Assembly: GCF_000382245.1 (NCBI RefSeq)
Contig: NZ_KB907882.1
Span: 1 to 62,210, forward strand
DNA length: 62,210 nucleotides
DNA from: Kushneria aurantia DSM 21353
GTDB lineage: Bacteria; Pseudomonadota; Gammaproteobacteria; Pseudomonadales; Halomonadaceae
Direction: 5' to 3'
The notes beneath the pieces were generated by a model. It had not been told where the DNA came from and made no database searches. It worked only from the letters and a program-made list of their open reading frames with translations. Position numbers and translations under genes: made by a program. Within the stretch, counting starts at the first letter, position 1; the number at the start of each line of letters is the position of its first letter. Below are positions 21,907 to 50,793 of the stretch, piece after piece.

Positions 21907-21977
21907 GTGCCTCGCCATCCCTGGCGAGCACCCTTCGGGCCGCCTGCGGCGTCAACAATCACTCCCGGCGGTTTTTT
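21907..21977 (+). repeat. 71-bp structured repeat, single copy upstream of higBA
   Basis: Same layout as the tandem copies at 22751: an outer hairpin (GTGC-CTCGCC / GGCGA-GCAC), CCCTTCGGGCCGCCTGCGGCG, then a terminal hairpin with TCCCG loop and a T-run. Here the last stem is mismatched (left arm AATCAC, right arm GCGGTT), as if recombinant between two stem types. A run of seven T precedes it at 21900-21906. Confidence 0.85.
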
Positions 21978-22056: not shown

Positions 22057-22347
22057 ATGATCGTTAATTTCAAACACAAGGGGTTGAAAGATTTATACAA
22101 AAAGGGGACGACAAAGGGAGTACAGCAAAGCCACATAAAGAAGCTTCGGCGCATATTGGCAAATCTGGATGAGGCAAAAGCACCGCCCGACATGGATTTT
22201 CCGAGCTACAAACTCCATGAACTGGAAGGAAAAAGAAAAGGAATCTGGTCAGTTTGGGTCAATGGAAATTAGCGAGTGACGTGGAAGTTTTCAGGCAGCG
22301 ACGTGGATATTGTCAATTATGAGGACTACCACGGGAAGAAAAAGTAA
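22057..22347 (+). pseudogene. higB: HigB-type toxin gene with in-frame amber codon
   Basis: The RelE/ParE-fold HigB family is clear: FKHKGLKDLYKKGTTKGV, HIKKLRRILANLDEA, YKLHELEGKRKGIWSVWVNGN. Codon 72 is TAG (22270-22272) where the family has Trp (NGNWR). Beyond it the frame continues in perfect family style (RVTWKFSGSDVDIVNYEDYH) to TAA 22347, so a single TGG-to-TAG change has cut a 96-residue toxin to 71. The lost part contains the final beta strands and the conserved DYEDYH-like end, so ribosome-dependent RNase activity is probably abolished. Confidence 0.88.
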
Positions 22348-22407
22348 AGGTAGTCCCGAAAGGGGCCGATCTGGCCGACATCATGAATTGTGAGAGGTAA
22401 TTTAGTC

Positions 22408-22695
22408 ATGGCCATGTTTAATCCGCCGCATCCTGGTGAGATATTGCGCGAAGATGTACTCGAAGCGCTGGATCTGAGTGTCAGCGAAGCCGCCAGGCAT
22501 CTCGGTATGACTCGCGTCCAGCTCTCCCGGGTCGTCAATGAACACGCCGGCATCAGCCCCGATCTGGCAGTGCGTCTTGAACGTGCAGGTATCAGTACCG
22601 CAAGGCAGTGGATGGCGCTGCAGTCGGCCTACGAGCTGTGGCAGGCCGATCACCGCGAACAGCCTGAAATAGGGAAGCTCGCCGCTACGGCTTGA
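22408..22695 (+). CDS. higA: HigA-type antitoxin, XRE family
   Basis: 95 aa. PPHPGEILREDVLEALDLSVSEAARHLGMTRVQLSRVVNEHAGISPDLAVRLE is the HigA/VapI helix-turn-helix. It follows the toxin gene, the order characteristic of higBA. ATG 22408 has GAGAGG upstream; ATG 22414 is an alternative. The antitoxin is intact although its toxin is broken. It would bind the upstream palindrome. Confidence 0.92.
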   Translation: MAMFNPPHPGEILREDVLEALDLSVSEAARHLGMTRVQLSRVVNEHAGISPDLAVRLERAGISTARQWMALQSAYELWQADHREQPEIGKLAATA

Positions 22696-22723
22696 TCAAC
22701 AGTCATTCCTCGCCGTATCTACT

Positions 22724-22750
22724 CCACCGCCAACGGCGGTGGGCTTTTTT
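22724..22750 (+). terminator. Intrinsic terminator of higBA
   Basis: CCACCGCC-AAC-GGCGGTGG followed by GCTTTTTT. The first 71-bp repeat begins directly at the end of this T-run. Confidence 0.8.
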
Positions 22751-23035
22751 GTGCCCTGCCATCCCTGGCGGGCACCCTTCGGGCCGCCTGCGGCGTCAAA
22801 AACCGCTCCCGGCGGTTTTTTGTGCCCTGCCATCCCTGGCGGGCACCCTTCGGGCCGCCTGCGGCGTCAAAAATCACTCCCGGTGATTTTTTGTGCCCTG
22901 CCATCCCTGGCGGGCACCCTTCGGGCCGCCTGCGGCGTCAAAAACCGCTCCCGGCGGTTTTTTGTGCCCTGCCATCCCTGGCGGGCACCCTTCGGGCCGC
23001 CTGCGGCGTCAAAAACCGCTCCCGGCGGTTTTTTT
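22751..23035 (+). repeat. Four tandem copies of a 71-bp repeat with covarying terminator stems
   Basis: Copies begin at 22751, 22822, 22893 and 22964, each exactly 71 bp. Each has a hairpin GTGCCC...GGGCAC with inner GCC/GGC, then CCCTTCGGG and GCCGCCTGCGGC mini-stems, then a hairpin with A-rich left arm, TCCCG loop and T-rich right arm. In copies 1, 2 and 4 the last stem is ACCGC/GCGGT; in copy 3 it is ATCAC/GTGAT, both arms changed together. Each unit therefore ends in a bidirectional terminator-like hairpin. With the spacer to 23169 this 474-bp stretch contains no gene; the open frames through it are a by-product of repeat length. Confidence 0.92.
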
Positions 23036-23104
23036 GTGTTTCCGCGTCAATCGAGCGCCATTAACCAATGACCGACCATGATAAGCACGATAGTCACGAC
23101 AACA

Positions 23105-23128
23105 GGCGCAGGCGCAGGCGCAGGCGCA
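23105..23128 (+). repeat. Hexanucleotide microsatellite, four GGCGCA units
   Basis: Four perfect GGCGCA copies, 41 bp before the aldehyde dehydrogenase start and followed by GGAGGTTATAAT, which contains a -10-like TATAAT. Slippage would shift promoter spacing, not reading frame. Confidence 0.8.
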
Positions 23129-23169
23129 GGAGGTTATAATAGCAGCAGTTCATCCACAGGAAGCTTCCT

Positions 23170-24633
23170 ATGTCCCGCGAAACAGTGTCCCGCGAAATGG
23201 CCTCCTATGCCGACGTCAGGCTTTTCATCGACGGTGAGTGGCGCGATGGCCGCGACGGTCACCATATCAAGGTAATCGAGCCGGCGACCGGCAACATCCT
23301 CGGCCGAGTGGCGCACGCCACGTGCGCCGATCTCGACGATGCGCTGGCAGCTACCGAGCGCGGCTTTAATATCTGGCGCACAACCCCGGCGTTCGAACGC
23401 TATAAAATCATGCGCCGGGCGGCGGAACTGCTGCGCGAGCGTGCCGACAACATCGCCCGTCTGATGACTCTGGAACAGGGCAAGCCGCTGGCCGAAGCGC
23501 GCGGCGAAACCCTGGCGGCCGCCGATACCATCGACTGGCTGGCCGAAGAGGGTCGGCGTACCTATGGACGCATCGTGCCGTCCCGCGCCGCCGGCGTCGA
23601 GCAGCGCGTGGTGCGTCAACCGGTGGGCCCGGTGGCCGCCTTCACACCGTGGAACTTCCCGATCAACCAGGTCGTGCGCAAGCTCTCCTCGGCGCTGGCC
23701 ACCGGCTGTTCGATTATCGTCAAGGCGCCGGAAGAGACTCCCGCCTCCCCCGCCGAGTTGATTCGCGCTTTCGCCGATGCCGGCGTGCCAGCCGGTGTCA
23801 TCGGTCTGGTCTACGGCATTCCGGCGGAGATCTCCGCATATCTGATTCCTCATCCCACCATCCGCAAGGTGACCTTCACCGGCTCTACCGCCGTCGGTAA
23901 ACAGTTGGCGGCGCTGGCCGGGGAGCACATGAAACTCGCCACCATGGAGCTCGGCGGACATGCACCGGCACTGGTCTTCGACGATGCCGATGTCGAGCAG
24001 GCCGCTCGTCTGCTCGCCGGATCGAAATTTCGTAACGCCGGTCAGGTCTGTGTGTCACCAACCCGCTTTCTCATTCAACGCAGCGTGTTCGACACCTTCC
24101 GCCAGCACTTCGTCGCTCAGGCCCGCGAGATCAGAGTCGGCAACGGGCTCGATCCCGCAACCACCATGGGGCCACTGGCCAACGAACGTCGCCGCCCGGC
24201 GCTGGAGGCACTGATCGAAGATGCCTGCCGTCAGGGCGCGACCCTCGAGCTCGGCGGCAAGGGCATCGAGGGGCCGGGTTACTTCTTCGAGCCAACCGTA
24301 CTGAGTGGATTGACGCCGGCGATGAAAGTCATGAACGAGGAACCCTTCGGGCCGCTGGCGCTGCTGATTCCCTTCGATGAACTCGATGACGCTCTGAACG
24401 AGGCCAACCGCCTGCCCTACGGGTTGGCCGCCTACGCCTTCACCGCCTCCTCGAAGACCGCTCAGGCGCTCAGCGACCGACTGCAGGCCGGCATGCTGAC
24501 CATCAATCACCTGGGCATCGCGTTGCCCGAACTGCCGTTCGGCGGCATCAAGGATTCCGGTTACGGCTCCGAAGGGGGCAGCGAAGCGCTGGAAGCCTAT
24601 CTCACCACCAAACTGGTGACTCATCTGGGATAA
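23170..24633 (+). CDS. NAD(P)-dependent aldehyde dehydrogenase, succinate-semialdehyde type
   Basis: 487 aa, full length. [13 protein letters not shown] (catalytic Asn), FTGSTAVGK (nucleotide loop), MELGGHAP (general-base Glu), [11 protein letters not shown] (catalytic Cys) and NEEPFGP. The pattern is closest to GabD-like succinate-semialdehyde dehydrogenases, though the substrate is not proved. The N-terminus is odd: a 15-bp tandem duplication (TGTCCCGCGAAA twice) encodes SRETVSREM before the usual [13 protein letters not shown], so ATG 23197 may have been the original start. AGGAAG lies upstream of 23170. No gabT or gabP is adjacent. Confidence 0.9.
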
Positions 24634-50659: not shown

Positions 50660-50694
50660 TTCCGCAACACACGACACGTTGCGGTAACAGCGAA

Positions 50695-50723
50695 ACCGGC
50701 GCCACAGGGGCGCCGGTTTTTTT
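50695..50723 (+). terminator. Intrinsic terminator after icd
   Basis: ACCGGCGCC-ACAGG-GGCGCCGGT followed by a T-run to 50723. The structured repeat begins in that T-run. Confidence 0.88.
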
Positions 50724-50793
50724 GCCCTGCCTTCTCTGGTGGGCACCCTGCGAGCCGCCTGCGGCATCAAAAAATCGCTCCCGGCGATTTTTT
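50722..50793 (+). repeat. 72-bp dispersed copy of the structured repeat
   Basis: TGCCCTGCC...GGTGGGCA outer stem, CCGCCTGCGGC, then a terminal hairpin with TCCCG loop whose stem is ATCGC/GCGAT. This is a third stem version, again complementary on both sides, and differs from the copies at 21.9 and 22.8 kb. The rest of the 412-bp gap (50794-51071) holds no gene I can support and must contain the gcd promoter. Confidence 0.85.

Follow-up and report, generated by a model that had tools for sequence, protein, structure and literature searches.

The window analysed here, a stretch of 62,210 nucleotides from the genome of Kushneria aurantia DSM 21353, contains at positions 22751-23034 four head-to-tail copies of a 71 bp unit (TRF score 552, 96% matches). 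The locus raises the question of what this unit is and how its copies came to lie directly behind a transcription terminator. An earlier note had counted six copies in the window, the four in tandem and single ones at 21907 and 50722. It had placed the start of the first copies in the T-tract of the higBA and icd terminators, the copy at 21907 following a T-run without a clear hairpin. Both observations were confirmed: copy 50722 begins inside the T-run of the icd terminator, and copy 21907 is preceded by T7 with no clear hairpin. The features, all on the plus strand, are listed below with the scores given by two covariance models, R1 trained on copies of the K. aurantia genome only and R2 built from other genera, this genome excluded.

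21907..21977, plus strand: single unit behind T7, partly decayed, with one H4 mismatch (R1 80.5 bits)
22723..22750, plus strand: intrinsic terminator that follows the HTH (HigA-like) gene, with hairpin 22723-22743 and T-run 22745-22750; the array starts here, its first copy beginning after the T-run
22751..22821, plus strand: repeat unit 1 (R1 100.1 bits, R2 90.9 bits)
22822..22892, plus strand: repeat unit 2, H4 variant ATCAC/GTGAT (R1, R2)
22893..22963, plus strand: repeat unit 3, same sequence as unit 1 (R1, R2)
22964..23034, plus strand: repeat unit 4, same sequence as unit 1 (R1, R2)
50694..50723, plus strand: terminator of icd (monomeric isocitrate dehydrogenase, by Pfam), arms 50694-50702 and 50710-50718, T-run 50717-50723
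50722..50793, plus strand: single unit following the terminator of icd, its H4 being the ATCGC/GCGAT variant (R1 74 bits, R2 61.6 bits)

The HigB-like toxin gene at 22057-22347 (PF05015, E 5e-13) has an in-frame TAG about three quarters along, and the toxin of this TA pair looks broken, its HTH partner being open. A perfect 6-bp repeat, CAGGCG, is present in 4.7 copies at 23103-23130, just upstream of an aldehyde dehydrogenase gene.

The unit consists of four hairpins in series, H1-H2-H3-H4. H1 reads GTGCCC-T-GCC-ATCCCT-GGC-GGGCAC and H2 reads CCC-TTC-GGG. The stem GCCGC-CT-GCGGC originally suggested for the third hairpin is better read as CGCC-TGC-GGCG, the form of the window units, since in longer copies this stem grows to CGCCAC-TGC-GTGGCG and CGTTGC-TTC-GCAACG. 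H4 of unit 1 reads AAAAACCGC-TCCCG-GCGGTTTTTT; for the units as a group it was written AAAAATCGC-TCCCG-GCGATTTTTT. This hairpin is terminator-like and, being nearly symmetric, could work in both directions. Over positions 22400-23200 a pattern scan gave three terminator-like sites against 0.8 expected, two of them overlapping at the host hairpin and the third corresponding to H4 of unit 4 (23011-23033); the H4s of units 1-3 were not among them. The sole difference between unit 2 and units 1, 3 and 4 lies in the last stem, where ATCAC/GTGAT stands for ACCGC/GCGGT. Compensatory change in this stem, as proposed in the earlier note, holds for the array and for copy 50722 but not for copy 21907, the last stem of which (ATCAC/GCGGT) contains an A-C mismatch and thus an uncompensated pair.

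Dispersal of the unit and its junctions

In the 3.75-Mb draft genome 66 matches were found by blastn (E<=0.001), far beyond chance, and 66 also by R1 (E<=0.01). The genome-wide covariance-model search suggested in the earlier note yielded these 66 matches, and stem covariation and T-run placement, described below, were borne out. Many of the copies lie in arrays of two to five with a period of 71-76, and some arrays are interrupted by a contig end or by stretches of N. Two contigs (C23:58055-58124 and C31:70-139) carry at their ends an identical unit with an identical downstream flank, perhaps beside a collapsed multi-copy region, e.g., an rRNA operon. The unit measures 71-76 bp.

An exact-pattern H4 scan of the genome collection, which fixed the 3' end of the unit (TTTTTTG) and not its 5' junction, returned 56 stretches from Pseudomonas/Stutzerimonas, Alcanivorax/Alloalcanivorax, Salinicola, Halomonas and one unplaced gammaproteobacterial MAG. 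R1 matched in all 56, with 36-93 bits, a few of them without part of H1. Counting the present genome, the repeat was found in 1/10 genomes of the genus (this one alone), 78/275 of the family and 44/390 of the order; these are lower bounds due to strict filters and to the few candidates scored per genome. No unit was found in the nine congeners, also when all candidates were scored with blastn. The distribution is patchy. Six Pseudomonas genomes contain 45 (P. daroniae), 48 (P. dryadis), 12 (P. flavescens), 12, 7 and 8 copies. The unit was further found on two closely similar IMG/VR viral contigs (L288:600-673 and L289:77-150, 84.6 bits) in phage-like late genes, in the order short terminator, unit, tail-sheath gene. 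These contigs were obtained with a second H4 pattern, the first giving no match in viral contigs. The window array itself had no match in plasmids or phages, and a Pseudomonas array matched four plasmid records.

The junctions showed a marked preference for T-runs. Among 60 first-in-array copies of the named genera, 52 had a T-run at their start and 30 a hairpin plus T-run in front (simple rule), compared with 1.1% and 0.15% of 20,000 random positions; in the remaining 8 there was no T-run at the junction. The corresponding counts in the K. aurantia genome were 24/33 (random 1.4%) and 12/33 (random 0.2%), the 33 including truncated copies and a few later ones whose predecessor was unlisted. 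The units point the same way as the terminator that precedes them. The host genes identified in K. aurantia code for proteins, icd being assigned by Pfam and rplT, rplQ, erpA, dps, nrdB and others by reading; one unit (L152) follows a tRNA-like end, also by reading. Gene-orientation context from a crude ORF caller, which placed 24/60 named-genera and 5/26 own arrays inside called ORFs, was discarded. Repeats shared by the two flanks were searched in 36 chosen arrays, most of them preceded by a terminator. They measured 9 bp at most, against 18 bp in the rrnB control, and were T-run-based in 31/36. The direct repeat TTTTTTGTG stood on both sides in 11/36, of which two then have a broken further unit, a G after T6 being favoured by the scan pattern. 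The integron attC R box, GTTRRRY, was seen in 0/36 of these arrays.

The state of the same sites in relatives could be read from 91 congener loci, in which no unit was detected (R2, best 16.8 bits). A hairpin and T-run followed the same gene in 63/88 unit-free congener loci at 11 sites, as judged by reading, leaving 25/88 without a counted terminator. At icd a terminator without unit was present in 9/9 congeners. At ten further sites, whose gene names were assigned by reading, it was present in 54/79 loci: rplT 8/8, erpA 9/9, dps 7/7, rplQ 8/9, hcd (a dehydrogenase gene) 6/8, amtB 6/9, nrdB 5/7, purN 3/5, the sulfatase gene 2/8 and ppsR 0/9. These counts disregard two weak amtB calls and, for the sulfatase gene, calls lying at a distance. 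The hairpin itself was recognisably conserved at rplT, erpA, rplQ and icd, and elsewhere only its position was alike. Because the unit-free congeners possess a terminator after the same gene, these comparisons argue that the units arrived after the terminators. The ppsR target is a T6 run within coding sequence (ATTTTTTGA), which one congener has as well; what is recognised may thus be the T-run and not the hairpin. By eye, congener terminator T-runs often continue with RTG or RTC (loci L086-L094 and L159-L240), resembling the start of the unit (TTTTTTGTG, TTTTTTATG).

Sister species of Pseudomonas provided further comparisons. Of three P. daroniae sites that are unit-free in P. flavescens, two have a T-run in the latter species and the third a hairpin whose T-run is poor. 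P. flavescens and three other species show a terminator without unit at a fourth site, at which P. dryadis has the unit. At one further site the subtype and number of units differ among three sister species, and at another P. dryadis has neither the unit nor a comparable T-run. A fully clean two-sided filled/empty pair was not obtained, the right flanks realigning only some distance from the junction; the exact unit ends therefore rest on many junctions and not on one pair. The T-run placement, the unit-free loci with a terminator, the patchy distribution and the two viral contigs support the terminator-associated mobile repeat that the earlier note had considered.

Copies belonging to the same array had an average identity of 0.951 (50 pairs) as compared to 0.78 between arrays (1078 pairs), a value reached in 0/2000 permutations, and the nearest neighbour was in the same array for 33/38 copies of multi-copy arrays. 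This near-identity and the position of the nearest neighbours indicate that arrays probably grow locally after the first insertion. On these figures, local duplication is a likelier source of arrays than successive insertions beside the T-run of the unit itself.

What could have moved the unit was approached through protein domains. Y1_Tnp had 0 matches in this genome (5/14 controls positive) and no positive association with the repeat family-wide, with 26/78 repeat-bearing genomes against 31 expected (by eye). The association with RAYT/TnpA-REP genes raised in the earlier note was thus not found. The unit does resemble REP/BIME elements as an intergenic palindromic repeat with many copies, and the retention of the target on one side is reminiscent of Y1 chemistry. 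It differs from them in being longer, with four hairpins, a direct tandem order and a T-run target. All multi-copy arrays of this genome are head-to-tail, none with alternating orientation; one pair of opposite neighbours about 70 bp apart was seen in Alcanivorax sp. 24 (L148, units 2653-2803 on the minus and 2874-2949 on the plus strand). Given the lack of Y1_Tnp in this genome, of an association in the family and of alternating order, a REP/BIME element moved by a RAYT transposase was rejected and appears very improbable.

RVT_1 was present in 10/27 chosen genomes, with three matches in this one. It was absent in 9/12 repeat-bearing genomes of one genus (g4), in 7/12 of which both RVT_1 and Y1_Tnp were absent (by eye). 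Neither Y1 transposases nor reverse transcriptases track the repeat. Group IIC introns insert directly after intrinsic terminators in sense orientation, as the unit does, but the unit is only 71-76 bp long, and a reverse transcriptase mover on this analogy was rejected owing to the g4 genomes without RVT_1. On one K. aurantia contig (C5, L035), about 4.3 kb are flanked by a left unit fragment at 82441-82480 and a right one at 86814-86874. Both have the same orientation, and the right one lies inside a LysR-like reading frame (by reading). An autonomous element with unit halves as its ends was also rejected, no transposase being seen among the ORFs of this 4.3-kb stretch (by reading).

Covariation of the hairpins and a test for strand preference

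The four hairpins were recovered by RNAalifold, unaided, from 34 distinct copies of this genome, with both-side change in 10/23 pairs. With the structure given, 93.1% of the cells were paired in this genome, and both-side changes numbered 44 against 12.2 after shuffling. In 87 copies of other genera aligned with R1, 94.8% of the cells were paired, with 91 both-side changes against 18.2 and both-side change in 16/24 pairs; these figures lean towards the structure, to which the alignment was fitted, R1 not having seen the copies. When the partners were slid by 1-3 columns, pairing in the other genera fell to 31-54%. The covariation of the hairpins is therefore real in two separate sets.

Selection on one RNA strand should leave more G-U than A-C at paired positions. 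The G-U and A-C cells numbered 55 and 51 in the other genera and 19 and 27 in this genome (74 and 78 in total), and 27 distinct tRNAs present in the fetched loci gave 32 and 0. Since G-U and A-C are about equal, unlike in the tRNAs, nothing favours one RNA strand, and the strand test does not support selection of the unit as one RNA strand. The step from covariation to selected RNA or DNA structure, taken in the earlier note, is thus only half supported, and template switching that repairs imperfect palindromes could give covariation as well. The only clear lean of a helix was that of H3, with G-U 7 against A-C 20 on the sense strand (both sets). Taken alone, folding energy tilts towards the sense strand, with z values of -3.12 (unit 22751) and -3.10 (unit 50722), the antisense values being weaker (-2.21 and -1.05, respectively). 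The palindromes look as if they were maintained, or generated, at the level of the double strand, the copies then decaying without strand preference.

The loops were nearly invariant. TCC was present in the H1 loop of 80/87 copies from other genera and 50/53 own full copies, and in the H4 loop of 86/87 and 51/53, respectively. The own-genome counts refer to 53 of 61 aligned copies, eight short or N-bearing ones being left out.

Two alternatives bear on these data. In the first, the unit would be an RNA module selected by the host, its hairpins being needed at the transcript 3' end for termination, exonuclease protection or protein binding, and recombination would spread the copies. Sense-strand folding, covariation and the TCC loops are in line with it, as are same-site copies of two Alcanivorax-type species (L113, L114), in which the pairing of H1 and H2 was kept through paired changes. 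Such a module is, however, difficult to reconcile with the balance of G-U and A-C, with the absence of the unit from all nine congeners at the traced sites and with the differing subtype and number of same-site copies in sister Pseudomonas, and we regard it as unlikely. In the second, there would be no selection on structure: template switching, which could also give covariation by repairing imperfect palindromes, together with slippage multiplying the units, would make covariation and arrays mutational by-products. This is compatible with strand-symmetric mismatches, locally homogenised arrays and stable hairpins. It leaves unexplained the dispersal to dozens of T-runs, the unit boundaries common to several genera and the nearly invariant loops, and it seems to us still less likely than the RNA module.

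Relation to the E. coli tRNA-linked repeats

The earlier note had recognised no named family. This agrees with Rfam, which gave 0 matches at gathering score in the window, the best sub-threshold match being isrK on the plus strand (27.1 of 50 bits), but comparison with E. coli suggests a relative, the tRNA-linked repeats (TLRs). According to PMC8144298, this repeat family of tRNA/rRNA operons has been known since 1978 and is reported from Enterobacterales. In a text search of the literature covering few subscription papers, three unit strings and the repeat itself were not found, and TLRs of this kind appeared only in PMC8144298 among the matches listed. BoxC of E. coli, named in PMC2267715, is a structured repeat of about 50-56 bp, likened here by description.

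For the TLRs of E. coli K-12 rrnB and rrnD, R1 gave 54.9 bits and R2 66.3 bits, and for the rrnA TLR of strain PSJ-23 R2 gave 61.9 bits. The R2 background reached at best 16.8 bits in 188 kb of unit-free control and 18.9 bits at non-unit places within the window. Like the unit, the rrn-linked TLRs (RrA, RrB, RrF; rrnB T1-T2 spacer) have four hairpins in the same order, the H4 loop TCCCG, a CCG linker, a location at a transcription terminator and a direct repeat at their ends. A chance resemblance of the rrn copies seems unlikely, as they share four hairpins in order and the same H4 loop. They differ in being antisense to the RNA gene, whereas the units read with the preceding terminator; in carrying an 18-bp repeat of the 5S end (rrnB), the units having no copy of the upstream gene end; and in their few copies and the lack of a T6 run at the ends. 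The tRNA-linked TLRs (argQZYV, lysT-lysQ, tyrTV / RtT RF00391) resemble the unit in their CCCTNCGGG..CGTTGC core, which lies opposite the RNA gene. They do not share H1 and H4, and with 8.8-19.3 bits they are at background level, having mainly H2-H3 in common with it. RtT (Rfam RF00391) was found in tyrTV and is absent from the window. More generally, TLRs are located within tRNA/rRNA operons and duplicate 18-19 bp of the 3' end of the RNA gene, unlike the units, which lie behind protein genes and show no such duplication.

The H2-H3 core was found at 14 places in 5/9 K-12 tRNA/rRNA regions fetched, always on the strand opposite to the RNA genes. A strict 16-mer core was present 11 times in 35.6 kb of K-12 regions versus 0 in 188 kb of unit-free congener loci. 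UUCG-type hairpins being common, convergence is possible for this core alone. With blastn against 5426 E. coli genomes, one Alcanivorax unit matched 273 records; of the two places inspected, one is the 3' flank of an rrn operon (E 3e-4), the other a spacer next to tRNA-Arg (E 2). The window unit gave 13 weakly matching records (E 0.6-8), five of them long, the one inspected being a 5S flank; the short ones listed lie in a restriction gene. These comparisons point to a unit related to the E. coli TLRs in another genomic setting and orientation.

We propose that the unit is a non-autonomous dispersed element, forming the terminator-linked branch of a family that includes the E. coli TLRs, and we give this reading a probability of about 60%. 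The simplest account is that the element targets T-runs and carries its own terminator-like hairpin and T-run at its end. The unit would be joined at a T-run as a DNA copy, the hairpins probably serving for its recognition, and the T-run (often TTTTTTGTG) would be left on both sides of the inserted unit. Arrays would then grow mainly by local duplication. The host terminator and the unit together would form terminators in series, acting two ways, at little cost to the host. On this account the TLR family would widen from the tRNA/rRNA operons of Enterobacterales to the terminators of protein genes in Halomonas, Salinicola, Alcanivorax and Pseudomonas, and would include a repeat with a very specific target, the T-run at a gene end, which neither a RAYT nor, apparently, a reverse transcriptase explains.

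The TCC loops, nearly invariant, correspond to GGA on the other strand, ANGGA being present on the complement of H1 in 77/87 copies of other genera and 47/53 own copies; in E. coli this strand would have become the CsrA-binding sRNAs. As described in PMC8144298, the TLRs of rrn operons are the sRNAs RrA, RrB and RrF, which bind CsrA and Hfq in vitro, RrB binding CsrA through GGA. Termination by H4 and CsrA binding of the complementary strand may be predicted from the sequence. In a stronger version, the unit would be a CsrA/RsmA-binding decoy, antisense transcripts of the array with GGA in the H1 and H4 loops binding CsrA in the manner of RrB, RsmY and CsrB. Besides the ANGGA motifs and the corresponding strand of RrB, the H3 excess of A-C over G-U on the sense strand leans towards the other strand, and weak Rfam matches to RsmY (E 0.022) and RsmW (E 0.65), far below gathering score, fall on the minus strand of 22680-23060, the one with the GGA loops. 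In Halomonas and Pseudomonas, however, the strand read from the upstream gene has UCC. Antisense transcripts would be cut short by H4, the pattern scan (22400-23200) showed no promoter-like site at the window array, and the top Rfam match, itself sub-threshold, belongs to a different family (isrK) and to the plus strand. We consider a decoy role unlikely, and the dispersed element remains the preferred reading.

A wider view of the dispersed element can be offered tentatively, as one that is rather less probable than the element itself. The TLRs would be what is left of a class of small mobile elements widespread in Gammaproteobacteria, targeting the 3' ends of transcription units, the T-runs of terminators here and the 3' ends of RNA genes in E. 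coli, and also riding on phage-like DNA. The insertion of a TLR might then explain the double terminators of exactly three E. coli rrn operons, the GGA strand having later become the CsrA-binding sRNAs RrA, RrB and RrF. The idea fits with the 18-bp direct repeat and with the restriction of a TLR together with two terminators to rrnA, rrnB and rrnD (PMC8144298). It suggests a testable origin, by insertion of a mobile unit, for double terminators whose significance is described in the same source as puzzling since their discovery.

An Alcanivorax array matched 13 plasmid records and one phage-collection record (blastn). Among these and the four plasmid records of the Pseudomonas array, three were inspected. 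Two, from the plasmid matches of the Alcanivorax array, contain rrn-type TLRs and correspond to the spacer between two rRNA-operon terminators, as in K-12; double rrn terminators are used in many plasmids. The third, the conjugative IncP plasmid pADP-1, carries a degenerate unit (L290:3004-3070, 39.8 bits).
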